From: Oscillatoriales cyanobacterium
GTDB taxonomy: Bacteria; Cyanobacteriota; Cyanobacteriia; Cyanobacteriales; Laspinemataceae
Assembly (NCBI GenBank): GCA_011390955.1
Contig: JAABRM010000020.1
Coordinates: 1-64,000, forward strand
Direction of reading: 5' to 3'
Length of the DNA stretch: 64,000 nucleotides
Both the position numbers and the translations under genes were made by a program. Below are positions 13,701 through 31,014 of the stretch, piece by piece; position 1 is the stretch's first letter; each line of letters opens with the position of its first letter. The notes under the pieces were generated by a model that saw only the letters and a program-made list of their open reading frames with translations, was not told where the DNA came from and ran no database searches.

Positions 13701-15723
13701 TTACGATGCTAACCGATTTGATAATGATACTGTCAGCCGGATGTTGGGACATTTACAAACTTTGTTGTCAGGAATGGTGGCTCATCCAAGTGGGCGCGTT
13801 GGTGAATTGCCACTGCTGACTCTAAAAGAGAAGCAGCAACTATTAGCAGATTGGAATAATACTTGGGCTGAGTATCCACAGAATAAGTGCATCCATCAAT
13901 TGTTTGAAAAACAAGTGGAATTAACTCCTGATGCTGTAGCGGTGATTTTTGAACAGGAACAAATAACCTATCGAGAATTGAATGTAAGAGCCAATCAGTT
14001 AGCACATTATTTGCAAACTTTAGGGGTAAAACCTGAAGTTTTAGTAGGCATTTGTGCAGAGCGATCGCTCGAAATGATAATTGGTTTATTGGGCATCCTG
14101 AAAGCAGGTGGTGCTTATGTTCCACTCGACCCAGCATATCCAAAAGAACGTTTGGCTTTCATGCTAGAAGATTCTTCTGTACCAGTGCTGCTCACCCAAC
14201 AGAAGCTAGTCGAGAAACTTCCTCCTAATTCGGCTCGTGTTATCTGCTTAGATTCTGATTGGGAAGAAATCTCTTTCCACAGTCAAGACAATCCTTTAAG
14301 CGAAGTGCAGCCAGAAAATTTAGCTTACATTATTTACACATCAGGATCTACTGGAAAACCCAAAGGCGTTTTAATCGAACACAAATCGCTAGTCAATTAC
14401 ACGACGGTTGCGATCGCTGAATATCAAATCGAGAAGTCAGATCGCATTCTGCAATTCTCCTCAATTAGTTTTGATGTCAGTGCCGAAGAAATCTATACCA
14501 GCTTGGCATCGGGTGCAACACTCGTATTGCGTACCGATACAATGGTGGACTCCTTTGAGGGATTTTTGCAGAAGTGCCAGAACTGGGAAATAAGTGTAAT
14601 GGCTTTGCCCACAGCCTACTGGCATGAATTGACTGCTTTGTTGAACCCAAAAACTCTTGCATTACCCTCTTCTTTACGTTTGGTCATTCTTGGGGGAGAA
14701 AAAGCACTGCCAGAACGATTGAAAACCTGGTTTGAATGTGTAGGACAACAAGTACGTCTATTGAATAATTACGGCCCAACAGAAGCCACTATAGGAGCGA
14801 CCATATACGAGTTATTAGCAGACGATACGGCATTGAGGGAGTTGCCCATCGGTCGTCCTCTTGGGAATGTCTGTACCTACATCTTAGATCCGAACGGACA
14901 GCCTGTACCCATAGGCGTTCCGGGTGAGTTGCACATCGGTGGTGCTGGTTTGGCACGAGGTTATCTAAACCGTCCTGAGTTGACCACTGAGCGGTTCATT
15001 CGTAACCCCTTTAGTGACTCTCCCACTGAACGCCTTTATAAAACTGGAGATCAGGTTCGCTATCTGCCTAATGGTAATATTGAATACCTCGGTCGGATAG
15101 ATGACCAAGTGAAGGTTCGTGGTTTTCGCATCGAACTCGGAGAAATTGAAGCAGCACTCAGTCAACATCCCAGCTTACTCTCTGTCGCAGTTGCGCTTCG
15201 AGAAGATATTCCAGGCCAAAAGAGCCTAGTGGCCTACATTGTCACCGTTCAGGAGTCAGCACCCACCGTTAGCGAACTGCGCGACTTTCTCAAACAGCAG
15301 TTGCCCGATTACATGATTCCCAATGCTTTCGTTAGCCTACCGACACTGCCGATAACACCCAATGGCAAAGTAGATCGCCGGGTGTTGCCCGCACCAGATA
15401 TCAAGAGTTTGATTCAAACATTAGAGTTTGTCGCTCCTCAGACTCCAACAGAAGAATTAGTAGCATCTATCTGGAAAAAGGTTCTGGGAGTAGAGCAAGC
15501 AAGCGTCAACGATAATTTTTTTGAATTAGGTGGGCATTCGTTACTCGCGACTCAAGTCCTTTCCCATTTGAATTCTAGTTTAGGGCTGCATCTCCCTCTG
15601 TCTAAGTTGTTTGAGTTGCCAACGGTAGCCAGTCTTTCTAGCTACATTGATGCCACCCTTTGGACAAGCAAAAACATCGAAAATATTAATACAAGTCACG
15701 AAAGAGAGGAGTTTGAACTGTAA
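7714..15723 (+). CDS. NRPS, two modules: docking-C-A-PCP-E / C-A-PCP
   Basis: A 2669-residue non-ribosomal peptide synthetase. Residues 1-55 form a TubC-type docking domain (start MNLNQFLAELAQRGVKLWLE). Module 1 has a C domain (about 72-500, HHIVWDG), an A domain (about 530-1020), a carrier (LGGDS near 1070) and an epimerase (about 1125-1560, HHIAVDG, then VGWFTSIFPV). Its A code reads D-A-F-F-L-G-V-T-F-K, close to those for isoleucine or valine, so a D-Ile-like residue is likely. Module 2 has a C domain of the type that follows an epimerase (about 1600-2030, HHLLMDG), an A domain (about 2060-2560, code D-V-E-A-I-G-N-I-G-K, unassigned) and a carrier (LGGHS near 2605). All core motifs look intact. 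It overlaps its neighbours by 4 bases upstream and 1 base (TAATG) downstream, implying translational coupling. Confidence 0.95.
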   Translation: MNLNQFLAELAQRGVKLWLEGETLRFRAPKGVMTPEERDLLVLHKAKIISLLSPNNTSANDTGKTLVTTSEQREIPLSFPQEQLWFLSELDANNVSYNELFALRFLGVLNIVALEQSLNKIVARHAALRTNFATVNGQPVQFIAERLTLTFPVIDLSNLPACDRENEVQRLATEQAQKPFDLVSDSLIQATVVKLTETEHIFLLRTHHIVWDGWSLGVMWRELAAFYNDLSQELPLLPAQYPDFAVWQRQYLTGEVLDSLQTYWQQQLLDAPTLLELPTDRVRGVTQTFRGKHYRFVISKLLTEALIGLSRRQKVTLFMTLLAAFQTLLYRYTGQDDVVVGSPIANRDRSEFKDLIGYFVNTLVLRICLAGNPSFEDLLSRVRKVTLEAYSHRELPFEKLVEILQPERSLSYTPLFQVMFMLLEELPEIQMEGLRVSPLAIETGTTHFDLALFIEKTSSGLIGEWEYNTDLFDEATITRMSGHFQTLLEAIAANPKQKISELPLLTQTECHQLLVEWNNTQIEYPQDKCIHQLFEEQVEHTPDAVAVVFESKQLTYRELNTKANKLAHYLQTLGVKPEVLVGICIERSLEMIVGILGIIKAGGAYVPIDPAYPSERIAYMLKDSQLAVLLTQEKLVASLPEHQAQVICLDSDWEEISTESDLSPITSVTPENLAYVIYTSGSTGKPKGVGVPHRAVNRLVINTNYIYFQPLDVVAFASNFSFDAATFEIWGALLNGAKLIVITKDVAISPDEFAAQIHSQGITVLFLTTALFNLLAREVPSAFRSVRHLLFGGEAVEPKWVKEVLKKGSPQRLLHVYGPTENTTFTTWYLVEDVSEEATTIPIGRPIANTQVYLLDTQLQPVPLGVPGEVYIGGDGLARGYLNRPDLTDEKFIPNPFSNQPSSRLYKTGDLARYLINGNIEFLGRIDNQVKIRGFRIELSEIETAISQHPSVAQTVVIAVENNIGNKQLAAYIVPQPQAVASSGDLRNFLKQKLPEYMIPAVFIMLETLPLTPNGKIDTKALPKPETADQQLATTKVPPQTVTQKILASIWTEVLQVREIGIHDNFFELGGDSIISIQIIARCHQANLQLTPKDLFQHQTIAELAQVVTSTIEIKAEQGLVTGIVSLTPIQQWFIEQNLPSSHHFNQSFLFEISSDLKSELLHQVLQQLLLHHDALRLRLIPNNDTWQLLNAPSEETEIFNVIDLSQIGQSEQIAAIETPANQLQASLNLLDGPIIRVTLFNLGNQEANRLLIIIHHIAVDGVSWRILLEDLVTAYQQLSRGETIQLPAKTTSFQDWAIRLTEYAQSQTAPSELDYWLTQLNSHIEPLPVDYPASIVENKIADTAVVSVSLSVEQTTALLKEVHKAYNTQINDVLLTALVQSFAQWTGESSLLIDLEGHGREELFELVNLSRTVGWFTSIFPVLLKIEKAEFTGKSIKSIKEQLRRIPQRGIGYGIIRYLSQDETTREQLQELPQAQVSFNYLGQFDQMLSAFPILGLAKESSGSPVSLKGNRSHFIEIDGFVANGQLQLNWAYNKKIHQTSTIERLANSFIEALTGTIFHCLSPDNFGYTPTDFPDADLTQAELDELVESLTPRTILESIYPLSPMQEGMLFHTLYAPDSGIYFVQSVFTLCGNLQVLAWEQAWRRVVEIHPILRTFFIWKNRPHPLQVVCKSVDLPWHIYDWRSLSEAEQKEGLETFLQTERERGFELDKVPLMCGTIIRLTDNAYQFVWSFHHLLMDGWCLPIVLKQAWTFYEAFDRGENLYLDAPPPYRNYIAWLRQQDSEAAQKFWRSQLAGFTAPTPLMVDKSVGDSSKQQDTYDEQGINLSAQLTEALSSLARQHHLTLNILMQGAWALLLSRYSGESDVVFGATVSGRPPALSGVESMVGLFINTLPVRVQISAETELLYWLKQLQVSQVEREQYSYSPLVEIQGQSDVTRNLPLFNSIVVFENYPVDSSLLESQEGIEIKNIGGFEKTNYPLTVGVVPGDELSIQISYDANRFDNDTVSRMLGHLQTLLSGMVAHPSGRVGELPLLTLKEKQQLLADWNNTWAEYPQNKCIHQLFEKQVELTPDAVAVIFEQEQITYRELNVRANQLAHYLQTLGVKPEVLVGICAERSLEMIIGLLGILKAGGAYVPLDPAYPKERLAFMLEDSSVPVLLTQQKLVEKLPPNSARVICLDSDWEEISFHSQDNPLSEVQPENLAYIIYTSGSTGKPKGVLIEHKSLVNYTTVAIAEYQIEKSDRILQFSSISFDVSAEEIYTSLASGATLVLRTDTMVDSFEGFLQKCQNWEISVMALPTAYWHELTALLNPKTLALPSSLRLVILGGEKALPERLKTWFECVGQQVRLLNNYGPTEATIGATIYELLADDTALRELPIGRPLGNVCTYILDPNGQPVPIGVPGELHIGGAGLARGYLNRPELTTERFIRNPFSDSPTERLYKTGDQVRYLPNGNIEYLGRIDDQVKVRGFRIELGEIEAALSQHPSLLSVAVALREDIPGQKSLVAYIVTVQESAPTVSELRDFLKQQLPDYMIPNAFVSLPTLPITPNGKVDRRVLPAPDIKSLIQTLEFVAPQTPTEELVASIWKKVLGVEQASVNDNFFELGGHSLLATQVLSHLNSSLGLHLPLSKLFELPTVASLSSYIDATLWTSKNIENINTSHEREEFEL

Positions 15724-18700
15724 TGGATATAGTTGAGTTTGTAAATTATCTACGCAAGCTGGATATTAACCTGTTTCTCGAAGGCGATCGCCTGCGGTGC
15801 AACGCACCTCAAGGTGCTATCACCGCTGAACTAAAGTCAGAGATGAGCGGAAGGAAAGCGGAGATAATCTCCTTTTTGCAACAAGCCAATATTCAAACCA
15901 CTACCACGGCGATCGCGCCAATATCCAGAACAGAACAAAACACCTTTCCTCTTTCCTTTGCCCAACAGAGACTGTGGTTCCTCGACCAGTTACAGCCCAA
16001 CAGTTCCTTTTACAATATCCCCCTGGCGTTACATCTGAGCGGTCAGATTAATATTGCGGCTTTAGAAAGCAGCATCAACGAAATTATTCAGCGACATGAA
16101 GCCTTACGCACCAACTTCGTGACGGCAGAAGGTCAACCCGTCCAAGTTATTGCTTCAAATCTCAATTGTCAGGTGCAAGTGGTAAACCTGTTGCACCTGT
16201 GTGAAACTGAGCGAAAAATCGAGGTGCAACGATGCGTAAATGAAGAAGCGAATCGACCTTTTAAACTGGAGCGAGAGCCTTTATTTCGAGTTATTTTGCT
16301 ACCGCTAGACCAAACCGAATACGTCTTGCTGTTCACCATGCACCACATTATTTCTGATGGGTGGTCGCTGGGCGTATTTGTGAAAGAACTCATAGAACTT
16401 TACAAAGGCTTTTGCACTGGAAAGCCTGTAAATTTACCCTCGTTACCAGTACAATATGCCGATTTTGCGGTTTGGCAGCGGCAGTGGTTAACGGGAAAAA
16501 TACTCGAAACCCAGCTTGACTACTGGAAAGAACAACTCTCAAACTCTCCGGCTTTATTAGAATTGCCGACAGACAGACCAAGACCTGCTGTTCAAACCTT
16601 TCGGGGAGGGTATTACCATGCAGTTCTTCCCCAGGAATTGAGTGCGGAACTTACCGCATTGAGTAAGCGAGCGGGAGTTACGTTGTTTATGACGCTTTTG
16701 GCGGCGTTTCAAACCCTGCTCTACCGCTTATCCGGGCAAGATGATATCGTAGTGGGTACGCCCGTAGCGGGTCGTAACCGAGAGGAACTCGAAGGACTAA
16801 TTGGCTTTTTTATCAATACCTTAGTGCTGCGTACTGACTTCTCAGGTATCCCTACTTTTGAGCAGTTACTTAATCGAGTCCGGGAAGTGGCGATGCAAGC
16901 CTACGCCCATCAAGACCTGCCATTTGAGCAGTTGGTAGAGACATTGCAACCAACGCGAGATTTAAGCTACTCGCCCCTGTTTCAGGTGATGTTTTCCCTC
17001 GAAGACGCTTTAGTACCTGCCGTAGAACTGCCTGAGTTAACGATAAGTTCTTATCCCGTGGAAATCGGCACGGCGAAGTTTGACTTGGGCTTATCAATAG
17101 AGAATACCGCCTCTGGATTAATAGGAGTATGGGAATACAATACTGACCTGTTTGATGAGGCCACCATATTTCGGATAGCGGGACATTACCAGACCTTGCT
17201 AGAAGAAGTCGCCGCTAATCCCAAGCAGAAAATTTCAGAATTGCCCCTGCTGACAGAAACAGAGCGACACCAACTATTAGTAGAGTGGAACAACACTCGG
17301 GCTGAGTACCCCCAGGATAAGTGCATCCATCAGTTGTTTGAGGAGCAGGTGCGGCTAACTCCTGATGCTATAGCTGTGGTGTTTGAAGGGGAACAACTGA
17401 CCTATCGAGAATTGAATGCAAAGGCAAATCAGTTAGCGCACTACCTCCAAAGCTGGGGAGTAGGGCCTGAAGTATTGGTGGGTCTTTGTGTAGAGCGCTC
17501 TTTGGAAATGGTAATCAGTTTGTTGGGCGTCCTCAAAGCTGGTGGTGCTTATGTTCCACTCGACCCGAACTATCCGTCTGAGCGCTTGGGTTTCATGCTA
17601 GAAGATTCGTCGGTTCCAGTGCTGCTCACCCAGACGCAACTGGTCGAATTGCTTCCTCCTTCCTCGGCGCGTGTTGTCTGTGTGGATGGGGACATAGAAA
17701 AAATTGCTTTCCACAGTTCAGAAAACCCCAGCAGCGCAGTAACGCCGGATAACCTGGCTTACGTTATTTACACATCAGGCTCTACAGGAAAACCCAAGGG
17801 CGTCTTATTGGCTCACCAGGGACTGTGTAACTTAGCCACCGCACAGATCCAGCTATTTGACGTACAGCCAAACAGTCGCGTCCTCCAGTTTGCCTCTTTT
17901 AGCTTCGATGTGGCAACTTCAGATGTGGTGATTGCGCTTACTTCTGGTGCAACTCTATATCTAGCAACCAAGGATTCTATTTTGCCTGGATCTGGTTTGA
18001 TTGAAGTGTTGAGCGATAAAGCTATTACCCACGTTGAACTGCCAGTGTCCGTTCTCAGCGTGCTTCCGTTTGAAGAGCTTCCGGGATTGGGAACCATCGT
18101 TGTTGGGGGAGAAGCCTGTCCTCCTGACCTCGTGGGACGTTGGGCAACAGGGCGTCAGTTTCTCAATGCTTACGGGCCAACAGAAACCACCGTTTGCGCC
18201 ACCCTTGCTCTTTGTGACGGAAGTCAGAAGCCGACCATCGGGCGTCCCATCGCTAACACAAAAATCTATATTCTCGACACTGAAAACCAACCCGTACCGA
18301 TAGGCGTTTCGGGAGAACTTCATATCGGTGGTGTTGGTTTAGCCCGAGGCTACCTCAACCGTTCCGATCTGACTGATAAGAAATTCATTCCCAACCCCTT
18401 TAGCAATGAACTGGGTTCGCGCCTTTACAAAACAGGGGACTTAGCGCGTTATCTCCCCGATGGTAACATCGACTTTCTTGGTCGCATCGATAATCAAGTA
18501 AAAATTAGAGGTTTTCGTATCGAGTTGGGAGAAATTGAAGCGGTACTCGCAGAACATCCGAATGTGCGGGAAGTGGCAGTCATTGACCGAGAAGATACAC
18601 CTGGAAACAAGCGTCTCGTGGCTTATGTGGTTTCTAACCTCATCCCCGATCGCATCCCTTATCACAGTAAATGCGAACTAGAACTAGACGGTAACGCGCT

Positions 18701-21700
18701 CAAAATTGAGACACAGGATATCTCCACCGGCGGCGTCAGTCTAGTGGGGGTGCCAGTTCTTGATAAAGGTAGCAGTGTCCGCCTGCACCTGCAATTGCCT
18801 GGGGAGGAAGAACCGCGCTGGTTTTCTGGGACAGTGGTTTGGTCGCATCCCCCACAGGCAGGGATTCGCTTTCAGCTTACGCCGAGCGAACAGGCTCAAG
18901 TCACTCGAAGCGTAGGTTATCAGTTGGACACTCAAGAATTATGGAAAACTTTGCAACGCACTCTGACTCGCAACCTGCGCGACTATCTCAAACAAAAGCT
19001 GCCCGACTATATGGTACCGAGCGCCTTTGTACTGATGAAAGCGCTGCCGCTGACACCCAACGGCAAAATAGATACAAAAGCCTTACCCAAACCCTATTCA
19101 GCAGATCAACAACTAGCCATCAACTTTGTCGCACCCTGCACTGAAGCCGAACAAACACTAGCCAAAATTTGGTGCGAAGTCCTCCACCTTCAAAAAGTCA
19201 GTATCCACGACAACTTCTTTGAAGTTGGCGGAGACTCCATTCTCAGCATTCAAATTATTTCACAAGCCAATATTGCTGGACTCCAACTCACTCCCAAACA
19301 AATATTCCAACATCAAACCATTGCCGAATTAGCTGCCGTAGCAACTCCGACAGAAACTAATAAAGCAGAACAAGGTCTAATAACTGGGTCATTACCACTC
19401 ACACCCATCCAACATTGGTTTTTTGCTCAAAATTTTCCAGAATCCCACCACTGGAATCAAGCCTTTCTACTAGAAGTACCAGCAACATTCAAGCCCAACT
19501 TATTACAGCAATCCGTACAACAATTATTACTCCATCACGATGCTTTGCGCTTGCGTTTTACTGAATCCGAACAAGGTTGGCAACAATTTAACGCCCTACC
19601 GGATGAAATTGTACCCTTCTCCCTCATAGATTTGTCTGTACTGGCAGAAACCGCACAAGCAGAAACAATTGAAACTACTTCAGCCCAACTCCAAGCCAGC
19701 TTAAACCTCGCCACTGGCCCCATAGTGCGAGTCGCACTTTTCCATCTAGGAAATAGTAAACCTTCCCGCTTATTGCTAGTCATCCATCACTTAGCAGTAG
19801 ATGGAGTTTCCTGGCGAATTTTACTTGACGATTTACAGACAATTTATCACCAACTCGAAACCGGAAAACCAATTCAACTTCCTGCTAAAACCACCTCTTT
19901 CAAAGAATGGTCTGAAAAATTAACCGAATATGCCACTTTGCCAACTGCCAGAAAAGAATTAACTTATTGGTCAAACCTTTCCGCCTCAAAGATCACCCCT
20001 TTACCAGTAGACTATGTAAAAGGAACCAACACAAAAGCATCAGCCCGTAATGTATCTGTATCTCTGAACAAGGAAGAGACTCGTGCCTTACTCCAAGAAG
20101 TCCCCAAAGCTTACCACACTCAAATCAACGACATATTGCTCACCGCATTAGTGGAAGTCTTAGCTAATTGGACTCAATCTAACTCAGTTATTATTAACCT
20201 TGAAGGTCACGGACGAGAAGAAATTTGGCCAGATGTAGACTTATCCCGTACAGTTGGCTGGTTTACTACCATCTTCCCGGTACTGCTAAAATTAGAAGCC
20301 CCTGATAATTTAGGAGATGCTATCAAATCTATAAAAGAACAAATCCATGCCATACCCAATCGGGGTATCGGCTATGGTTTGCTGCGCTATCTGAGCGACG
20401 ATGCACAAATTGTTTCTTCCTTAAAAACATTACCAATTTCCGAAGTTAGCTTCAACTATCTAGGACAATTCGATTGGGGGATTTCATCCGACGGTCTATT
20501 TAAATTAGCTTCGGAATTAATAGGACCCGAACACAGCGAACTGGGACATCGCATTTATCTAATAGATATTAACTGTATCGTAGTAGAAGGTCAGCTAAAC
20601 GTAGATTGGAGTTACAGCGAAAACTTTCACAAAAGTGCCACAATTGAAAGGTTAGCCCAACAATATATAGAAGCACTAAAAACCCTGATTGTACATTGTC
20701 AATCTCCTGATGTTGGAGGATACACGCCTTCTGACTTCCCCTTAGCAAAATTAGACCAACAACAACTAGATAACTTACTGCTACAGTATCCAGATCTAGA
20801 GGATATTTATCCTCTCTCACCCATGCAGAGCCTATTCTACGCTCTGGGCGTGTTTGAGTCAGAGGTAGGTTTCGAGCAGGGGTACTGTACTCTTCACGGT
20901 AATCTTAATATATTGGCTTTTCAACAAGCTTGGCAGCAAGCGAGCGCCCGCAACCCCATCTTACGTACCGCTTTTGTCTCAGAAGGTCTTGAAAAAGCAC
21001 TACAAATTGTACTAAGCAGAGTTAATTTACCCTGGGAGCAACTAGATTGGCGGGGACTTTCTTCTGACTCACAGCAGGTGCAGCTAGATACTTTTATTCA
21101 AGCACAGCGACACCAAGGATTTGATTTATCATCAGCGCCGCTAATGCGGGTGACTCTGATTCGGCTAGATGAAGATGTTTACGAATTAATCTGGTGCTTC
21201 CAGCATTTAATATTAGATGGGTGGTCGTGGCCTTTACTTTGGAAAGAAGTGCTCCTTTTGTATAAAGCGTTAGATGCCGATCAAGAATTCCACTTAAAGA
21301 GCAGTCGCCCGTATCGAGATTATATAGCTTGGTTACAAGACCAAGACCAAGTAGCAGCAGAAACGTTTTGGCGGCAAATGTTGGCTGGGATAACCAAACC
21401 AAATTCTTTAATAGTAGGTGATTCTATTAACCAAGAGTCAGGCTACGCACAACTGGAAATTCAGCTATCACCAGAAGTTACGCAAAAACTTGAGACGTTA
21501 GCACGCAAGCAGCAATTAACATTGGGTACGATCGTACAAGGAGCTTGGGCGTTAGTGGTAAGTCGGTATAGCGGTGATGAAGATGTAATCTTTGGAACTG
21601 CTGTATCGGGTCGTCCTGCTAACTTGTTAGGAGTTGAATCAATGGTGGGGATGTTTATTAATAACCTCCCAGTGAGAGTCATGGTAAATGGAGAGAGTTT

Positions 21701-23813
21701 GTTTTTATCCTGGTTACAGGAGCTCCAAGATAAGTTGGTCCAGTTGCGTCAGTACGAGCATACACCCCTGGTACAGATTCAGCAGTGGAGCGAGATACCG
21801 GGATATCAGCGTTTGTTTGAGAGTTTAGTGGTATTTCAGAACTATCGGAGGGATGTTCTAGAAGACCAGGATACTACTGGTATAGAGATTAGTAATTTTG
21901 GGGGGTCTTTGAAAACCAATTACCCGCTAACGGTAATGGTAGTACCTTCTCAAGAATTGTCTCTAATTTTTGCATACGATCGTCATTGCTTTGATGAAGT
22001 AAGAATCACTCAGATGCAAAGGGATATGCAAACTGTGCTAGAAGGTATGGTGGCATTGAATGACTTACCGCTTCAAGAATTCCTCAATATTTTGCCATTA
22101 CAGTCTAATAGTAGGGTAAATCCCTCGGCAGTGACACCTGAACAGAAACGTTCTCAGCTAAAAAGTACATTCGTAGCACCTAGAGATGCTATGGAATTAC
22201 AGTTATCACAAATTTGGTCGGCAGTTTTTGGCATTCATCCAATAGGAGTGAATGATAACTTTTTTGATTTGGGAGGAAATTCTTTACTGGCAACTCAGGT
22301 TATTTCGCGCACTCAAGAAGTTTTTGAGATACAACTTTCTCTGCGTCATCTATTTGAAGCACCTACTATCGCTTTCCTGGCACAGGTGATCCATACTGTA
22401 TGTTTTGCACGTTTGAAGTCACAATCGGAGACTGTACCACCTCTTATAGCTATTGATCACGAGCCATACATACCGATGTCTTTTGCACAAGAGTATATGT
22501 GGTTATCACAGCAGTCTTACCCCAATAGTTGCGCTTACAATGCTTCTTTGGCTTTATGTTTTAATGGCGAGCTTTCTCTAGAAATGTTAGAAAAAAGTAT
22601 CAATGAACTTATCCGCCGCCATGAAATATTGCGTACTACTTTTCCTGTAGTAGAGGGTCAACCCGTGCAGGTGATTGTCCCAAAGCTAACCCTATATTTA
22701 AAGATAATAAACCTGCAAAATGTACCTCCAGCAGTGCGAGAAGTTGAAGCTTTAAAGGTTTCCAAGCGAGTGATGAAACACCACTTTGATCTGGAAGACG
22801 GTCCATTAATTGAGATCACCTTATTGCAGTTGTCTTCAGAAAAGCATTGGCTACTAATACCGATGCACCATATCATTACGGATGCCTGGTCAATGGGTCT
22901 CTTTGTGGAAGAGTTAGACATACTTTATAGCGCTTTCTCAAAAGGTTTACCTTCACCCCTTCCTGAAATGCCTTTGCAGTACGCTGACTTTACTCTCTGG
23001 CAGCGGCAGCGGTTCAATGAAGAAGTCTTGGCTCGGCAGCTTAATTATTGGCTGCAAAAACTGGCTGCTCCTTTACAAACGCAAGAATACCTGCCGGATC
23101 AAGAATCAAAGCCCAATCCTAACAGCGGTCGCGCCTCTTCCTACTCTGTAGTCTTGAGAGAAAATATAGTCGCATCTCTCGAAGACTTAAGCCGCTCCCA
23201 CAGCGTTACGATCTCCACCATCATCATTGCAGCCCTGAAGCTCCTTTTGTTTAAATGGAGCGGGCAAAACGACATTCTAGTAGTGACGACCATTGGTAAT
23301 CGAAGCACTCCAGAAATTGAAAAAATGCTCGGTTGCTTTCTTAATGACGTAATTTTGCGCTCACAGCTTGACGATGAACAAACAGGACTAGCTCTTGTAC
23401 AACGGGTTCAAGAAACACTCAATGAAGCGATCGAAAACAAGGAGATTCCTTTGCAAAAAGTTATTAAAGTTATCAGAAGCAAGAGAGAATTGACCATCTC
23501 GGCGAGTGTTACAATAGTTCCTCCTGTACATCGTTCTGACCGGATGTCTGAATGGGACTTCGCACCAGTTTTGCCCACAGAAGAACTGTGGGATGAGGAG
23601 ATTCCTCTAGAACTTTATATTTCTTCACCTTCAGAAGATTCTAAAACTATCGAAATTCACGCTCTTTACAAGAGAGATTTGTTTGACAGTGAAACTATCG
23701 AACGGGTGTTTAACTGCTATCAAGGAATCCTGCAACAACTGGCTGAGTCACCACAAATGAAGATTGCTTCGTTTCTGGGCTTTCAAGACAACAATCGAGC
23801 AGGTGCAGAATGA
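15723..23813 (+). CDS. NRPS: docking-C-A(PilZ-like insert)-PCP-E / C-PCP / C
   Basis: A 2696-residue synthetase with an odd layout. After a TubC-like docking domain (1-56) come a C domain (about 76-500, HHIISDG), an A domain (about 530-1120), a carrier (VGGDS near 1170) and an epimerase (about 1225-1660, HHLAVDG). The A code reads D-V-S-E-V-G-A-V-C-K (unassigned). The A domain is interrupted between motifs A8 (about 920-940) and A9 (LPDYMVP, 1093-1099) by some 110 residues resembling a PilZ domain. A second C domain (about 1695-2110) has QHLILDG, where the first His of HHxxxDG is Gln but the catalytic second His remains. It is followed directly by a carrier (LGGNS near 2185) with no A domain. 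A final C domain (about 2252-2670, HHIITDA) closes the protein and there is no thioesterase. The terminal C domain may release the chain with an amine or by cyclisation. The stop overlaps the exporter start by ATGA. Confidence 0.94.
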   Translation: MDIVEFVNYLRKLDINLFLEGDRLRCNAPQGAITAELKSEMSGRKAEIISFLQQANIQTTTTAIAPISRTEQNTFPLSFAQQRLWFLDQLQPNSSFYNIPLALHLSGQINIAALESSINEIIQRHEALRTNFVTAEGQPVQVIASNLNCQVQVVNLLHLCETERKIEVQRCVNEEANRPFKLEREPLFRVILLPLDQTEYVLLFTMHHIISDGWSLGVFVKELIELYKGFCTGKPVNLPSLPVQYADFAVWQRQWLTGKILETQLDYWKEQLSNSPALLELPTDRPRPAVQTFRGGYYHAVLPQELSAELTALSKRAGVTLFMTLLAAFQTLLYRLSGQDDIVVGTPVAGRNREELEGLIGFFINTLVLRTDFSGIPTFEQLLNRVREVAMQAYAHQDLPFEQLVETLQPTRDLSYSPLFQVMFSLEDALVPAVELPELTISSYPVEIGTAKFDLGLSIENTASGLIGVWEYNTDLFDEATIFRIAGHYQTLLEEVAANPKQKISELPLLTETERHQLLVEWNNTRAEYPQDKCIHQLFEEQVRLTPDAIAVVFEGEQLTYRELNAKANQLAHYLQSWGVGPEVLVGLCVERSLEMVISLLGVLKAGGAYVPLDPNYPSERLGFMLEDSSVPVLLTQTQLVELLPPSSARVVCVDGDIEKIAFHSSENPSSAVTPDNLAYVIYTSGSTGKPKGVLLAHQGLCNLATAQIQLFDVQPNSRVLQFASFSFDVATSDVVIALTSGATLYLATKDSILPGSGLIEVLSDKAITHVELPVSVLSVLPFEELPGLGTIVVGGEACPPDLVGRWATGRQFLNAYGPTETTVCATLALCDGSQKPTIGRPIANTKIYILDTENQPVPIGVSGELHIGGVGLARGYLNRSDLTDKKFIPNPFSNELGSRLYKTGDLARYLPDGNIDFLGRIDNQVKIRGFRIELGEIEAVLAEHPNVREVAVIDREDTPGNKRLVAYVVSNLIPDRIPYHSKCELELDGNALKIETQDISTGGVSLVGVPVLDKGSSVRLHLQLPGEEEPRWFSGTVVWSHPPQAGIRFQLTPSEQAQVTRSVGYQLDTQELWKTLQRTLTRNLRDYLKQKLPDYMVPSAFVLMKALPLTPNGKIDTKALPKPYSADQQLAINFVAPCTEAEQTLAKIWCEVLHLQKVSIHDNFFEVGGDSILSIQIISQANIAGLQLTPKQIFQHQTIAELAAVATPTETNKAEQGLITGSLPLTPIQHWFFAQNFPESHHWNQAFLLEVPATFKPNLLQQSVQQLLLHHDALRLRFTESEQGWQQFNALPDEIVPFSLIDLSVLAETAQAETIETTSAQLQASLNLATGPIVRVALFHLGNSKPSRLLLVIHHLAVDGVSWRILLDDLQTIYHQLETGKPIQLPAKTTSFKEWSEKLTEYATLPTARKELTYWSNLSASKITPLPVDYVKGTNTKASARNVSVSLNKEETRALLQEVPKAYHTQINDILLTALVEVLANWTQSNSVIINLEGHGREEIWPDVDLSRTVGWFTTIFPVLLKLEAPDNLGDAIKSIKEQIHAIPNRGIGYGLLRYLSDDAQIVSSLKTLPISEVSFNYLGQFDWGISSDGLFKLASELIGPEHSELGHRIYLIDINCIVVEGQLNVDWSYSENFHKSATIERLAQQYIEALKTLIVHCQSPDVGGYTPSDFPLAKLDQQQLDNLLLQYPDLEDIYPLSPMQSLFYALGVFESEVGFEQGYCTLHGNLNILAFQQAWQQASARNPILRTAFVSEGLEKALQIVLSRVNLPWEQLDWRGLSSDSQQVQLDTFIQAQRHQGFDLSSAPLMRVTLIRLDEDVYELIWCFQHLILDGWSWPLLWKEVLLLYKALDADQEFHLKSSRPYRDYIAWLQDQDQVAAETFWRQMLAGITKPNSLIVGDSINQESGYAQLEIQLSPEVTQKLETLARKQQLTLGTIVQGAWALVVSRYSGDEDVIFGTAVSGRPANLLGVESMVGMFINNLPVRVMVNGESLFLSWLQELQDKLVQLRQYEHTPLVQIQQWSEIPGYQRLFESLVVFQNYRRDVLEDQDTTGIEISNFGGSLKTNYPLTVMVVPSQELSLIFAYDRHCFDEVRITQMQRDMQTVLEGMVALNDLPLQEFLNILPLQSNSRVNPSAVTPEQKRSQLKSTFVAPRDAMELQLSQIWSAVFGIHPIGVNDNFFDLGGNSLLATQVISRTQEVFEIQLSLRHLFEAPTIAFLAQVIHTVCFARLKSQSETVPPLIAIDHEPYIPMSFAQEYMWLSQQSYPNSCAYNASLALCFNGELSLEMLEKSINELIRRHEILRTTFPVVEGQPVQVIVPKLTLYLKIINLQNVPPAVREVEALKVSKRVMKHHFDLEDGPLIEITLLQLSSEKHWLLIPMHHIITDAWSMGLFVEELDILYSAFSKGLPSPLPEMPLQYADFTLWQRQRFNEEVLARQLNYWLQKLAAPLQTQEYLPDQESKPNPNSGRASSYSVVLRENIVASLEDLSRSHSVTISTIIIAALKLLLFKWSGQNDILVVTTIGNRSTPEIEKMLGCFLNDVILRSQLDDEQTGLALVQRVQETLNEAIENKEIPLQKVIKVIRSKRELTISASVTIVPPVHRSDRMSEWDFAPVLPTEELWDEEIPLELYISSPSEDSKTIEIHALYKRDLFDSETIERVFNCYQGILQQLAESPQMKIASFLGFQDNNRAGAE
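18639..18971 (+). other. PilZ-like domain inserted in an NRPS adenylation domain (between A8 and A9)
   Basis: Residues 973-1083 of the NRPS have no counterpart in the other three A domains of the cluster. The insert begins with DRIPYHSKCELE (R977) and holds DISTGG (D999, S1001, G1004), the DxSxxG signature of PilZ cyclic-di-GMP receptors. Beta-strand-like segments follow, including FSGTVVWSHPPQAGIRFQL, typical of the PilZ barrel. Only one of the two arginines of the usual RxxxR pair is visible: Leu stands four residues before R977. Ligand binding is therefore uncertain. A8-A9 is the site where N-methyltransferase domains often interrupt A domains, so the position is structurally tolerated. 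Confidence 0.75.
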
Positions 23814-25179: not shown

Positions 25180-26340
25180 ATGCAAAGACTTCCGTTAATC
25201 ATTTCTGACGAAACCCTCCGGGATGGCGAACAGCAAGCGGGGCTTTTCTTTCCTTATGAAACAAAAAAAACCTTAGCCCAACTCATCAGTCAAGCTGGAA
25301 TCCACCACATAGCCATAATGCCAGCCGTTCACGAAACCGAGGAACATTTACTCAAAACCTTGGTAGCAGAAGGCTTAGACAGTATAATGACGGCTTCCAC
25401 AATGCTGGGCAAAGAATTTATAGATCGAGCTAAAGCCTGCGGAATAAAGCAAATCATTCTCTTCTATGCCGTTTCAGATCGCCTTTTATTGTTAAGAGAT
25501 GCAGAAGCTCGCAATTTTACAGCGCCCCCAGAAGATGCACTTGTCCGCCGCGTCCGTCAAAATATGATTAATCAAGTTTTGGAAAATCTGCACTATGCTA
25601 CCAGTGCGGAAGTTGGTTTAAAAGTAGAGTTTGCTGCCGAAGATGCTAGCCGCGCTGATTTTAACTTTTTAGTGCAGTGCATTCGCGAATTCCAACCCTA
25701 CATTGAACACTTTATTCTTTGCGACACAATGGGTGTCCTTACTCCAGAGAAAACTTATGTATGGATTCACGACCTGTTAGAATTAACCCAGAATGCACCA
25801 TTAGGAGTACATTTTCACAATGACTTAGGCATGGCTTTGGAAAATACTATTCAAGCCGTCTTAGGTGGAGCTTCAATGATTTCAGGTACATTCCGAGGCA
25901 TTGGCGAACGGGCAGGTAATATTCCACTAGAGCAAGTCTTAACGGGACTTAAGTGGCGCTTTGGGATAGAAGTAGAAGGCATTAATTATGAAGCTCTCTC
26001 CCAAGTTACCGATTACCTAGATTCACTAGGAGTTCGTCCTGCTCCTCCTTACTCCAAAGCAGCCCTTCGTCACGAAAGCGGCATTCACGTTAACGGCTTC
26101 TTACGCGACCCAGAGAGCTACCATATTTTCCCTCACGCCGACCCAGAAATCTGGTTTGGAAAATGCAGCGGTTCTAGCAACTTTCAGTACCTATTTGAGA
26201 AGCAACTTAACCAACCGCTCACTCCTGAACAATATAATCGAATGCGAGACCAAATCAAATCCTTATCCATTCAAGAGCAGCGGTGCTTTTCTCCACAAGA
26301 GATTGTCAATTTATTTGAGGGAGGATTTTTCAATGGCTAA
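25180..26340 (+). CDS. hphA: benzylmalate synthase (isopropylmalate/homocitrate synthase family)
   Basis: A 386-residue member of the LeuA/homocitrate synthase family. The N-terminal DETLRDGEQ motif, the metal-binding pair in HFHNDLGMA and GIGERAGN are present. It lacks the C-terminal leucine-regulatory domain of true LeuA (about 510-550 residues), which argues against a role in leucine synthesis. In Nostoc punctiforme the same gene trio makes homophenylalanine: HphA condenses phenylpyruvate with acetyl-CoA to 2-benzylmalate. Here the gene follows the exporter and is followed by hphB, whose ATG lies inside the end of hphA (8-base overlap). This should supply the homophenylalanine or homotyrosine used by one of the NRPS modules. 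The function is inferred from family and context. Confidence 0.87.
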   Translation: MQRLPLIISDETLRDGEQQAGLFFPYETKKTLAQLISQAGIHHIAIMPAVHETEEHLLKTLVAEGLDSIMTASTMLGKEFIDRAKACGIKQIILFYAVSDRLLLLRDAEARNFTAPPEDALVRRVRQNMINQVLENLHYATSAEVGLKVEFAAEDASRADFNFLVQCIREFQPYIEHFILCDTMGVLTPEKTYVWIHDLLELTQNAPLGVHFHNDLGMALENTIQAVLGGASMISGTFRGIGERAGNIPLEQVLTGLKWRFGIEVEGINYEALSQVTDYLDSLGVRPAPPYSKAALRHESGIHVNGFLRDPESYHIFPHADPEIWFGKCSGSSNFQYLFEKQLNQPLTPEQYNRMRDQIKSLSIQEQRCFSPQEIVNLFEGGFFNG

Positions 26341-27391
26341 AGCGTATCGCGTAGTAGCACTTCCTGGCGAAGGCATTGGGCCAGAAGTGGTAGATGCTTC
26401 GGTAAAAATCCTCCAGCATTTAGCCAAATTAGAAGGATTTTCTCTAACTATCGACTATGCTTTAATTGGACAGCCCGCCTTCAATGAATTTGGAAACTTT
26501 TTTCCCACTCAAACTTCGCAATTATGCGAAGGGGCTGACGGAATTTTGTTTGGAGCCGTTACGAAAGGCGGGATTCTCGAACTGCGCCAGCACTTCGACT
26601 TTTTTATCAACCTTCGCCCCGTGCGTCCGTTTGAAATTTTATTGGATAAATCGAGTCTTCAGCCCCACAAAATTCAAGGAGTCGATATATTATTTGTTCG
26701 GGAGCTAATCAGTGGCATCTATTTTGGTCCATCCGGACGAACAGAAGACGAGAATGGCGCTTATGGCTATCATACAATGAAATACTACGACTGGCAAATT
26801 CGCCGCATCGCTAAAGTAGCTTTATCTAAAGCTAAAGAACGCCGAGGCTTTCTGACCGTCGCCCACAAAGAAAACGCTCTGCCCCAAATTCCTTGGAGCC
26901 GTTTAGTGCAGGAGGAGGCCCAACATTTCCCTGATGTTATAGTAGAGCCAATGCTAGTAGATAATTTAGCTATGCAACTCGTGCGAGAGCCTAAGCGATT
27001 TGATGTGATTCTAGCAGGAAATTTATTTGGAGATATCCTCAGCGATATCGGAGGGGCATTAGTCGGTTCCATTGGGCTATTGCCCTCTGCTAGTCTGAAC
27101 GAGCATGGGTTTGGCCTGTATGAAGCCATACATGGTACAGCACCAGATATTGCCGGTAAGGGTATTGCGAATCCTTTAGGGACGATTGGTGCAGTTATTT
27201 TAATGCTCCAACAGTGGGGTGAAATTCAGGCGGCTACCAGCCTACTTCAAGCCATAGAAAGAGTGTTAGCCCAAGGCTACCGCACGGCAGATTTAGCCCC
27301 CCAGGGTCAAGAAATTTTAGCCAATGCGGAAACTTTAACCGAGCTAATTGTCAAACAACTTTCTGAACGAACTTTGGTCAATAAAAAATAG
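26333..27391 (+). CDS. hphB: benzylmalate dehydrogenase (3-isopropylmalate dehydrogenase family)
   Basis: A 352-residue LeuB-like NAD-dependent beta-decarboxylating dehydrogenase. GEGIGPEVV at the N-terminus and the substrate/metal block DNLAMQLVREPKRFDVI, followed by GNLFGDILSDIGG and HGTAPDIAGKG, are family hallmarks. It would oxidise 3-benzylmalate to 2-oxo-4-phenylbutanoate, the keto acid of homophenylalanine. A longer frame is open from 26156, but the ATG at 26333, preceded by GAGGGAGG and starting MAKAYRVVALPGEGIGPE, fits the family start and makes an 8-base overlap with hphA. All three hph genes are tightly spaced, so co-expression is likely. Confidence 0.87.
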   Translation: MAKAYRVVALPGEGIGPEVVDASVKILQHLAKLEGFSLTIDYALIGQPAFNEFGNFFPTQTSQLCEGADGILFGAVTKGGILELRQHFDFFINLRPVRPFEILLDKSSLQPHKIQGVDILFVRELISGIYFGPSGRTEDENGAYGYHTMKYYDWQIRRIAKVALSKAKERRGFLTVAHKENALPQIPWSRLVQEEAQHFPDVIVEPMLVDNLAMQLVREPKRFDVILAGNLFGDILSDIGGALVGSIGLLPSASLNEHGFGLYEAIHGTAPDIAGKGIANPLGTIGAVILMLQQWGEIQAATSLLQAIERVLAQGYRTADLAPQGQEILANAETLTELIVKQLSERTLVNKK

Positions 27392-27401
27392 AGGAATAAT
27401 T

Positions 27402-29126
27402 ATGGAAAGCAATGCAAAAGTCTTAATAATTGGCGATGATATCAACACAGATGATATTATTCCCGCGAAACGATGTACTACTGCCGACCCTGAGTATTTA
27501 AAGCAGTATGCTTTTGAACATCTCATTGGAAAAGGTACTCTTTTAGGCTATGAAAAAATTGAAGCTGGACGCAATTTCGGCTGTGGGTCTAGTCGGGAAA
27601 ATGCGCCCATTGCCATTAAAGCTGCTGGCATTCAAAAAGTGTCTGCCCAGTCTTTTGCCGAAATCTTTTACCGCAATAGCATCAATATTGGTCTGCCTTT
27701 AGAGATTCTCTCTCAGCCCGTGAATAATCCAGTCATCGAAACGATTGTGAGGGCAGGCGGCTTAATTCCGTTTAACCAGAAGCGGCAGAAAGGTGAAATT
27801 TCCGTTCCGGAAAGTTCAACTCCTCCTAGAGCAATGACTATGGCAGAAAAACTTTTGGCACGCGCCTCTAGTAATGCTTACGTTCAGCCTGGAGAGACGG
27901 TGTTTGTTAAAGTCGATTTAGCCATGTCTCACGATGCCGTAGCCGCACCTGTTGCTGAAGTATTTTACCAGAATTTTGGAGAAGCAGCAAAAGTTTGGGA
28001 TGCCAATCGCGTTGTTTTAGTAGCCGATCACTTTATCCAAGTCAACGAGGTACGAGTAGACCCCAAAGCCACTTCACTATACTCAAAGATGGTGGAGTTC
28101 GCTGATTCGCAAGGCTGCCATCTCTTAGATGTGGTGTCCCCCGGAGAAGCTGCGGGGATTTGTCACGTTTTACTGCCAGAAAAGGGCTTTATTCATCCAG
28201 GTATGATTGTGGCGGGGACCGACTCCCACACTTGCACTTACGGTGCTTTTGGATGTTTTTCCACTGGAGTGGGAACGACGGATATGGCAAATATTTTTGC
28301 AATGGGGGATATGTGGGTGCGAGTGCCTCCCACTCTACTTTTTAAACTGGAAGGAACTTTGCCGAAATATATTACTGCCAAAGACATCATTCTGTTTATT
28401 CTCGGCAAAATTGGCTGTGACGGCGCTGCCGGGAAAGTTATGGAATTTCGAGGCAGTATTATCGATAAAATGCCAATGGAAGAGCGCATGACCCTCTCGA
28501 ATATGGCGATTGAGTGTGGTGCGATGTGTGGGTTAATTGCTCCTGATGAAACCACTCGCCAATACGTGCAAAACTCCGGTCAGGATTTATTTGAAGAAAT
28601 TGGCAGCGACCCCGATGCTTCTTATGAAGAAATCCATCAGTTCGATTTGAGCGATTTAGAACCGCAGGTTGCTCGTCCTCCCAAACCCGATTGCGTAATT
28701 GGTATTAGCCAGTTAGGAGAAATTCCGATAACTAAAGCTTTTATTGGTTCTTGCACTGGGGGGAAACTGTTCGATCTCGCTCAAGCTGCGGAAGTGCTTG
28801 AAAACCGCCGCATAGCTCCGGGTGTGAGCCTTTTTATTGTGCCAGCTTCTTTTGAGGTGCGCCAAAAGGCTGAGAAGTTAGGATATATGCAGATATTTGA
28901 GGCGGCGGGAGCCACCATTCTCAAATCAGGCTGCGGGGCTTGTATTAATGCTGGACTTGGGATACTCGGTAAAGAAGAGACAGGGGTCTATGCGACGAAT
29001 CGCAATTTCAAGGGACGCAGTGGCGATCCTACGGCAAAGAACTATTTGGCATCCCCCCGAGTGGTAGCTATTTCAGCAGTTGAGGGGAAAATTAGCGATC
29101 GCTTAAGCAATGTAGGCGTTGGATAG
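27402..29126 (+). CDS. hphCD: benzylmalate isomerase, LeuD-LeuC fusion
   Basis: A 574-residue fusion with the small subunit first (LeuD-like, about 1-165, with NTDDIIPAKR and GRNFGCGSSRENAP) and the large aconitase-type subunit second (about 168-574). Iron-sulphur cluster cysteines are visible in GSCTGGK and SGCGACINAG, and GTDSHTCTYG is the conserved upstream element. The D-C fusion order is that of cyanobacterial HphCD, which isomerises 2- to 3-benzylmalate; ordinary leucine isomerase has separate LeuC and LeuD. The start at 27402 is supported by GAGG and gives the family N-terminus. It begins 10 bases after hphB. No dedicated transaminase is present in the window, so a general aromatic aminotransferase would finish the pathway. 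Confidence 0.88.
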   Translation: MESNAKVLIIGDDINTDDIIPAKRCTTADPEYLKQYAFEHLIGKGTLLGYEKIEAGRNFGCGSSRENAPIAIKAAGIQKVSAQSFAEIFYRNSINIGLPLEILSQPVNNPVIETIVRAGGLIPFNQKRQKGEISVPESSTPPRAMTMAEKLLARASSNAYVQPGETVFVKVDLAMSHDAVAAPVAEVFYQNFGEAAKVWDANRVVLVADHFIQVNEVRVDPKATSLYSKMVEFADSQGCHLLDVVSPGEAAGICHVLLPEKGFIHPGMIVAGTDSHTCTYGAFGCFSTGVGTTDMANIFAMGDMWVRVPPTLLFKLEGTLPKYITAKDIILFILGKIGCDGAAGKVMEFRGSIIDKMPMEERMTLSNMAIECGAMCGLIAPDETTRQYVQNSGQDLFEEIGSDPDASYEEIHQFDLSDLEPQVARPPKPDCVIGISQLGEIPITKAFIGSCTGGKLFDLAQAAEVLENRRIAPGVSLFIVPASFEVRQKAEKLGYMQIFEAAGATILKSGCGACINAGLGILGKEETGVYATNRNFKGRSGDPTAKNYLASPRVVAISAVEGKISDRLSNVGVG

Positions 29127-29484: not shown

Positions 29485-31014
29485 TTAAAATCCAGTGTCA
29501 AAGATAATCGGGTTGGAACTAAGAATAGAGTGTCCGTCGTAAAAATCCGTGGCTCTAATGCAAATCATTGTTGGTAGTAGAGACAACGGATCCGGATACG
29601 CTGGTCCAAGATGGACTGTATATGCTTCATAATTTACTATATTTCCTTTTTCCACATATTCTAGAATCGGTCTCTCTACATCTCGGTACATTGGTATGTT
29701 ATTTCTTGTATGATAAAGTGGCACTAAATTTCTTGGTTCTGTCCCTGAGCCTCCTAAAACCCTTGCCAGTAAATGGGCTCTCACTATTATGTTACTTGTA
29801 CTGCGGGTGAAGAAAGGGAAGCTATATCCTCCCGTCCCCGTTCCCGTTCTTAACATTGCTTTCGTTATAGTCGCACTCACTCCGTCTCTCCTTCCATTTG
29901 CAATCGCATTGTACCTGACATATCCATTTGTACTTTTCACATTAGTTCCGTCTGGCATCACAGTGGTTTGTAGAAGTTGGGGTAAATTTTCTGCTAGGTT
30001 TATATTTATTATTTGAGATAGGTTATTAATTCTTGTGGTACTTCTTCCATATCTCCTAGTTCCTGGTTGCACTGGACCTTGATTTAGGCGTGTTCTATAG
30101 CTGTGTCTCTTTCTTCCACTTCTGGTATCAACCCTTTGGATGGTTGCTGACTGTTTATTTGCTGTTACTTCTTTTCCCTCTTTTTTTATATCCTGCTGTA
30201 TCCTGCGACCCTGTTGCACCACATGGGTTAACTCATGGGCAATCAACTCCTGCCCCCCACGACTCCCTGGCTCATACGCTCCCTGCCGAAAGAACACATC
30301 CTGCCCAGTAGTAAACGCCTTCGCCTGAATCGATCGCGCCAACCCATCCGCCTGCGCCCCCGTATGCACGCGCACGCCGCTAAAATCTGCACCAAACTCC
30401 CTTTCCATTGGCTCTCTTAGGGATAGCGACAATGGCTGTCCTCCACCTCTGGCTCGGTTTAATTCGCTTTCCCATTCACTAGAAACGTCTCCACCTTCCC
30501 CGCCAAGTGCCTGAATCGAGATTTTCCGCTGTACGGGATTGGATTCACTGCTGTTGAGATTGACTTGGGGTGCATGAATTCGATTCATAACTTGACGCGC
30601 CACCCGGTCAGCCTCTTGCTCGTACTTATCCCCTGCCGCCCCGACTGTCAGTTTTGCTTGGATGGGAAACCTTCGTGTAGAAGGTGGTTCTGGTGGTTGA
30701 ATAGAAATTTTTGCCAGCCGATTGTTGCCAGTGCTTGACCGTTGGATTTTCTCCGCTTCTTCCCCTGGATTGTCGTTTGCCACCACTTGCTCTGCACGTT
30801 GCACCGTTAACTGTGGCGTAAATGTTTCGTGTTGCGCGATCGCAATTCGTGATAGACGATTACTGCTTTCCGGTGAGCATTGAATATCCTGTGGCGTTGA
30901 ATTTTCGGTCTTCGCTGACTTTTGTTGAGGTGTGGCAAACGGACGTGGGGCAAACTGGCTGGTGGTTTTCTGGAAATTTCCTGCTGTCTTCCTTGAGATA
31001 AACTCTTTGGTCAT
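29485..31014 (-). CDS. DUF4157 (eCIS-type) protein with nuclease-like C-terminal domain
   Basis: A 509-residue protein with a disordered, Gln/Pro-rich N-terminus. A DUF4157 domain follows (about 170-270: MEREFGADFSGVRVHTGAQA and ELIAHELTHVVQQG with its HExxH-like zinc motif). DUF4157 proteins are linked to extracellular contractile injection systems and often carry toxins. The C-terminal 200 residues contain RAHLLARVLGGSGTEPRNLV (about 411-430), which looks like the His/Asn active-site region of DNA/RNA non-specific endonucleases (usually RGH or RAH with a downstream N). I infer a toxin cargo with nuclease activity. No sheath, tube or baseplate genes and no obvious immunity gene are nearby. 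It points against the hph operon, tail to tail with the RT remnant. Confidence 0.72.
   Translation of the reverse strand: MTKEFISRKTAGNFQKTTSQFAPRPFATPQQKSAKTENSTPQDIQCSPESSNRLSRIAIAQHETFTPQLTVQRAEQVVANDNPGEEAEKIQRSSTGNNRLAKISIQPPEPPSTRRFPIQAKLTVGAAGDKYEQEADRVARQVMNRIHAPQVNLNSSESNPVQRKISIQALGGEGGDVSSEWESELNRARGGGQPLSLSLREPMEREFGADFSGVRVHTGAQADGLARSIQAKAFTTGQDVFFRQGAYEPGSRGGQELIAHELTHVVQQGRRIQQDIKKEGKEVTANKQSATIQRVDTRSGRKRHSYRTRLNQGPVQPGTRRYGRSTTRINNLSQIININLAENLPQLLQTTVMPDGTNVKSTNGYVRYNAIANGRRDGVSATITKAMLRTGTGTGGYSFPFFTRSTSNIIVRAHLLARVLGGSGTEPRNLVPLYHTRNNIPMYRDVERPILEYVEKGNIVNYEAYTVHLGPAYPDPLSLLPTMICIRATDFYDGHSILSSNPIIFDTGF

Follow-up and report, generated by a model that had tools for sequence, protein, structure and literature searches.

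A PilZ domain within the adenylation domain of cyanobacterial nonribosomal peptide synthetases: a candidate site of c-di-GMP control

The third nonribosomal peptide synthetase (NRPS) of a gene cluster in an Oscillatoriales cyanobacterium contains a PilZ domain within its single adenylation (A) domain. The window analyzed here is a stretch of 64,000 nucleotides (contig JAABRM010000020.1, positions 1 to 64,000 of the forward strand, assembly GCA_011390955.1), and its positions 18639-18971 encode a true PilZ domain inside the C-terminal subdomain (Asub) of the A domain. From sequence comparisons and structure models we infer, with a probability of roughly 0.55, that the insert is responsive to cyclic di-GMP (c-di-GMP) and controls the A domain allosterically. 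The domain and its predicted barrel are located as follows.

18639..18971, forward strand: PilZ insert, residues 973-1083 of the open reading frame 15723-23813 (PF07238 profile, predicted fold, Foldseek)
18669..18872, forward strand: predicted six-stranded PilZ barrel, strands 17-22, 25-34, 38-42, 52-57, 66-76 and 79-84 of the insert model

An earlier note, made from the letters of this DNA, had placed a PilZ domain between core motifs A8 and A9, and its reading frame, coordinates and residues (973-1083) proved exact. It had named the PF07238 profile beforehand as a possible refutation, and the profile matched strongly: residues 977-1059 of the whole 2696-residue protein were recovered with E 1.2e-11 and 45.3 bits, and the 111-residue insert alone with E 1.1e-13 and 51.8 bits. 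As the gathering cut-off is 22.5 bits, scores of 45 and 52 bits do not reflect a chance match. PF07238 was the only Pfam family that matched the insert, and hence no catalytic tailoring domain was matched.

The insert was predicted to form six strands of at least three residues and a helix, with a predicted local distance difference test score (pLDDT) of 84, and a model of the whole A domain placed the barrel over the same span. The best PDB matches of the insert model in Foldseek were c-di-GMP-bound PilZ structures, with a probability of 1.00, in agreement with the fold that the earlier note had expected. Among the 25 Foldseek rows at E≤1e-3, 22 were titled PilZ or came from proteins that we take to be PilZ carriers (BcsA, MotI, MapZ, PA0012, VCA0042 and PlzA); the remaining three were 5y4r ("a methyltransferase complex", twice) and 4q63 ("uncharacterized"). 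A PDB search with the insert sequence gave weak matches (E 0.014 or worse), nine of ten of which are presumably PilZ or PilZ-bearing proteins.

The host A domain was mapped by domain profiles, motif reading and the whole-domain model.

15723..23813, forward strand: third NRPS of the cluster, 2696 residues with a single A domain (open reading frame and domain profiles)
17337..18356, forward strand: AMP-binding core of the A domain, residues 539-878 (PF00501, E 3.9e-86)
18480..18539, forward strand: motif A8 (GRIDNQVKIRGFRIELGEIE) including the hinge Asp (motif reading)
18939..18998, forward strand: predicted continuous helix LWKTLQRTLTRNLRDYLKQK, linking the C-terminal end of PilZ with the A-domain helix that precedes A9 (whole-domain model residues 565-584)
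18999..19019, forward strand: motif A9 (LPDYMVP; motif reading)
19056..19067, forward strand: motif A10 (PNGK) with the catalytic Lys; Gly-Lys invariant in a 21-row alignment
19149..19361, forward strand: thiolation (T) domain fed by the PilZ-bearing A domain, borders approximate (domain profiles)

The distance from A8 to A9 was 153 residues in this A domain versus 50 for each of its three counterparts in the cluster, which, as the earlier note had recognized, run directly from one motif to the next. The extra domain lies at the known interruption site of A domains, A8-A9; it follows an Asub strand (LVAYVV) and precedes the A9-proximal helix, which in the whole-domain model is common to both domains. 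In the profile search of the 2696-residue protein, AMP-binding_C matched over its first half only and was followed by PF07238. The interrupted A domain is otherwise intact, with A3, A5, A8, A9, A10, the hinge Asp and the catalytic Lys all present, as read from motifs, profiles and the invariant columns of the 21-row alignment.

The insert belongs to a widespread family with tandem forms, which the earlier note had not foreseen. With a profile built from 13 inserts and a family threshold of E≤1e-8, relatives were found in at least 49 of 388 sampled genomes of the window's order and in 32 of 149 genera, a lower bound as at most 12 candidates were scored per genome. A phylum-wide search with one protein matched 33 of 386 genomes at E≤1e-3, of which 10 were read as running through the insert and the rest mostly matched at A8 only. 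The PilZ profile was positive in eight of nine further A8-A9 stretches and missed in L040:12698-13258. Carriers included Argonema, Microcoleus, Kamptonema, Nostoc, Pantanalinema, Amazonocrinis, Leptolyngbya, Oscillatoria and one Parabeggiatoa metagenome bin, whose 6.6-kb contig may be contamination. A search of plasmid records gave no match. Seven of the 49 genomes (G425, G439, G543, G585, G618, G635 and G643) lay outside the fetched set, and five of these resemble named loci in frame length alone.

The recurrence across genomes rules out a one-off event. That the insert is a misassembly or a chance motif match has a vanishingly small probability: nothing was found for it, the significant profile score and the predicted fold oppose it, and its independent appearance both in named isolates and in assemblies from metagenomes refutes it. 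Chance and artefact were therefore set aside on profile score, fold and recurrence together.

The relatives carry the insert at one site, with one to three PilZ units each. The A8-A9 distance was 153-161 residues for single inserts, 256-282 for doubles and 357 for one triple, in rows some of which are A domains that the profile had split. The order A-PilZ-T was found in 81 of 87 insert runs (75 insert-bearing frames); a condensation (C) domain preceded the A domain in 54 of these, and the A domain was first in the visible frame in the other 27. The six exceptions were L046, L056 and L094, which are cut or split, L068 and L071, which are fragments lacking an A core, and L060, a stand-alone PilZ in Omnitrophota.

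Several unusual arrangements were seen among these loci. Three tandem PilZ units occur within one A domain in L094 and L096 (G547 and G560). In L068 and L071 (G394 and G409), frames of 355 and 359 residues hold two PilZ units and an A-domain tail only, and may be either a fragment or a separate protein. In four genomes (L032:9147-10355, L045:5977-7062, L069 and L072), a piece comprising Asub, PilZ, A9 and A10 is repeated before a single recognized T domain; in L032 the first T domain is truncated. Other inserts at A8-A9, judged by eye, were an oxidase-like one of 310 residues (L042:16175-17185) and, in the same genome, methyltransferase-like ones of 465 residues (L042:7349-8824 and L043:10759-12234).

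The residues associated with c-di-GMP binding in PilZ domains lie at the following positions.

18651..18653, forward strand: Arg977, which we assign to the second Arg position of RxxxR (start of the profile match, near profile position 7)
18717..18734, forward strand: DISTGG, residues 999-1004, a DxSxxG motif of the form [D/N]xSxxG

The DISTGG motif and the upstream Arg of the earlier note were thus both located. The insert of the window lacks RxxxR with both Arg, the first being absent, again as the note had suspected. We sorted 96 inserts (minimum length 85 residues, minimum score 40 bits, identical sequences counted once) into three groups: 69 single copies, among them the two spaced-apart units of L068, 12 first copies of a tandem and 15 later copies. 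Arg was found in the Arg977 column in 92 of the 95 inserts having a residue there. When the 109 columns of 67 non-redundant singles were ranked by entropy, Arg977, Ser and Gly came first, second and third and Asp eighth; the second Arg was present in 66/67, Ser in 66/67 and Gly in 65/67, and the Asp column held 61 Asp and 4 Asn in the 66 having a residue. None of 100,000 random four-column draws equalled the conservation of the motif. Among the 15 later copies of tandems, 11 had an Arg at position -4, the spacing of RxxxR, and 9 had complete RxxxR plus [D/N]xSxxG; for the latter 9/14 is the fairer count, as one row (L054) is a gapped single insert.

For comparison, we read by eye 12 PilZ sites outside NRPSs (L109-L120). 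They came from nine genomes that carry the insert and from one relative that does not. Four keep RxxxR and DxSxxG and eight lack the Asp, indicating that not every cyanobacterial PilZ domain has the motif, and some non-NRPS PilZ domains of these cyanobacteria may not bind c-di-GMP. It could be argued that in single-copy modules the insert is a PilZ fold of the XC1028/PilZ type that no longer binds a nucleotide and acts instead as a scaffold, or as a surface on which a partner protein, an adjacent module or the T domain docks. We regard this as doubtful, since Arg977 is tied with Ser as the most conserved column, Asp or Asn is kept in 65 of 66 non-redundant singles, unlike in 8 of the 12 non-NRPS sites, and the best fold matches are c-di-GMP-bound PilZ structures.

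The genomic context was examined for c-di-GMP signaling. The window's genome gave 38 GGDEF matches, a few of them fragments. A genome-wide PilZ check covered 24 genomes, comprising 21 insert-bearing genomes of the 49 found and 3 relatives without the insert; NRPS inserts made up all PilZ matches in 12 of these 21. Two further species of the window's genus gave no PilZ match in this check. If c-di-GMP does act through the insert, this may in some of these cyanobacteria be its only route via a PilZ domain. The non-NRPS PilZ matches in frames of 694-954 residues are consistent with cellulose synthases, judged by length alone, and PilZ-bearing cellulose synthases are described in cyanobacteria (PMC12430437). 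Another type of c-di-GMP receptor, CdgR, is described in Anabaena (PMC13075795), so that c-di-GMP action need not run through PilZ alone.

Several points weigh against control by c-di-GMP. The first Arg of RxxxR, which is considered important for binding c-di-GMP, was missing in 69/69 singles and 12/12 first tandem copies, and the motif Asp was lost in two members (L079 and L086). As SxxG was still present in all eight non-NRPS sites without Asp, the motif's Ser and Gly probably owe their conservation to a structural role, which leaves Arg and Asp as the telling residues; both are retained by the NRPS inserts. The eight Asp-less sites themselves may be other PilZ types rather than decayed ones. 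The search in which the NRPS insert was the only PilZ match of the window's genome, even at E≤10, was a loose first look at a genome that is 95.1% complete. The shared helix is a predicted mechanical link between PilZ and A domain, in a static prediction that is silent on motion. Finally, swaps of the A-domain core usually spare Asub (PMC8097286), so that retention of the insert through substrate swaps is expected and is no functional proof alone.

We also considered that the insert might bind another ligand, or one c-di-GMP instead of the usual dimer, with the first Arg replaced by an A-domain residue or by an Arg of the shared helix. This second conserved Arg was present in 87/91 of all inserts and 62/65 non-redundant singles, and the first-Arg position falls on a strand or loop of the A domain, which could thereby complete the site. 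The helix Arg was kept in tandem copies too (11/12 first and 12/15 later copies), though most later copies have RxxxR, and we judge such a binding mode distinctly unlikely. As a specific stand-in for the first Arg of RxxxR, the helix Arg was unsupported, being equally kept in tandem copies.

A domains rotate Asub between their two half-reactions. If the insert is a c-di-GMP-responsive control element, c-di-GMP or a related cyclic dinucleotide would bind the face formed by Arg977 and D999xS1001xxG1004, and the ligand would stiffen or shift the ends of the PilZ domain and, with them, the shared helix. A shifted helix would bias the swing of Asub between the adenylate-forming and thioester-forming positions, such that one module, and hence peptide output, would be tuned to cellular c-di-GMP with the choice of amino acid unchanged. 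By analogy to BcsA, we lean slightly toward binding switching the module on rather than off. A wider version, in which these NRPSs are gated module by module by the second messenger, with singles completing the site through A-domain residues and tandems carrying full sites, falls in our estimate a little short of even odds. The c-di-GMP role proposed by the earlier note is supported indirectly, through motif conservation, the motifs of tandem copies, GGDEF richness and purifying selection.

The PilZ-bearing A domain has the specificity code D-V-S-E-V-G-A-V-C-K, read at column positions that we assumed from GrsA. Across the family there were 36 codes among 73 insert-bearing A domains and 22 among 31 without the insert, with 12 common to both. 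Judged by these codes, this shows the insert to be independent of the substrate chosen, and a tie to one substrate was ruled out by the 36 codes and the 12 that overlap. Among ten close relatives (45 pairs), mean identity was 74% for the insert, 84% for the A8/A9 flanks and 49% (minimum 26%) for the substrate-binding part, in a comparison from which 18 single-insert domains were dropped for missing A3/A5 or too little sequence before A8, and one further domain as a duplicate or too short. These identities are in keeping with swaps of the A core that leave Asub in place.

The inserts are under purifying selection, with a ratio of nonsynonymous to synonymous substitution rates (dN/dS) of 0.22-0.38 in nine comparisons. 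Together with the motif conservation, this argues against the insert being a functionless, neutral passenger of NRPS module copying and recombination, as do the amplification in tandem, in which first copies mostly form a clade apart from later ones (in L041 the pair groups together), and the lack of internal stop codons among the matches listed. The insert has spread through recombining modules, and 339 of 388 sampled genomes had no match at E≤1e-8 with up to 12 candidates scored in each, as a passenger might be expected to show; we nonetheless consider the passenger reading very improbable.

Inserts described at A8-A9 are methyltransferases, oxidases, monooxygenases and ketoreductases (PMC11355689 and PMC8097286). 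The PilZ insert resembles these interrupted A domains in occupying the same site, in leaving the host A domain intact and in consisting of one or more inserted units; these described insert types are all catalytic, whereas the PilZ insert is of receptor type and occurs in up to three tandem units. In the cellulose synthases BcsA and XcsA the PilZ domain follows the catalytic domain, whereas in the NRPS it interrupts it, and NRPS single copies differ further in lacking the first Arg of RxxxR. Alg44, MotI/DgrA, YcgR and MapZ, which have the canonical RxxxR, share the PilZ fold (Foldseek probability 1.00 each), but their PilZ is separate or terminal and that of the NRPS is embedded in an enzyme domain. 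A 2020 catalogue of interrupted A domains reportedly contains methylation domains only. Among the titles and abstract openings listed from an open-licence library, none reported PilZ in an A domain, and where the word turned up in the papers inspected it was an author name, a German word, a cited reference or, once, part of a table of c-di-GMP proteins from a fish pathogen. Protein databases may well annotate such PilZ-bearing NRPSs automatically. We regard the insert as a variant of interrupted A domains and as a candidate for the first known second-messenger receptor within a catalytic domain of an NRPS.

NRPS regulation is usually sought in transcription. A receptor in the rotating part of an A domain would provide a route for a cell signal onto the assembly line itself, and the PilZ-bearing NRPS is a candidate target on which the numerous diguanylate cyclases in these cyanobacteria could act. 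If this is true, the c-di-GMP level of a filament would gate peptide assembly at chosen A domains, and the PilZ-bearing A domain could serve as a natural template for switchable A domains.

By profile matches, the domain order of the third NRPS is TubC_N-C-A(PilZ)-T-C-C-T-C. The protein ends in C-C-T-C, the second T domain has no A domain of its own, and no thioesterase profile matched in this protein. A TIGR01720 match at residues 1530-1685 is presumably an epimerase-type C domain. When the 1036-residue C-terminal part was compared with 11 genomes, the best, second and third among the matches listed had 60%, 57% (G455) and 49% identity. The best and third, both in G467, come immediately after A domains that carry PilZ, the G455 match is in a frame without a known PilZ, and the remaining listed matches reflect general C- and T-domain similarity.

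The first NRPS (4319-7717, forward strand) consists of A and T domains followed by an amidinotransferase, its 488-residue C-terminal part matching SxtG, HsvA and arginine:glycine amidinotransferase in the PDB (best E 7e-165). A lipoxygenase gene (1228-3348, forward strand, E 7e-57) lies upstream of the NRPS cluster. Downstream, at 25180-29126 on the forward strand, are HMGL-like, isopropylmalate dehydrogenase-like and aconitase-like genes, a trio that we take to recall the supply of homo-amino-acid (homophenylalanine-type) precursors. Beside the cluster, the gene at 29485-31014 on the reverse strand encodes an eCIS_core domain (E 3e-33) and, in the same frame, a DNA/RNA non-specific endonuclease match just below the cut-off; judging from these domains, its product is possibly a contractile-injection cargo.

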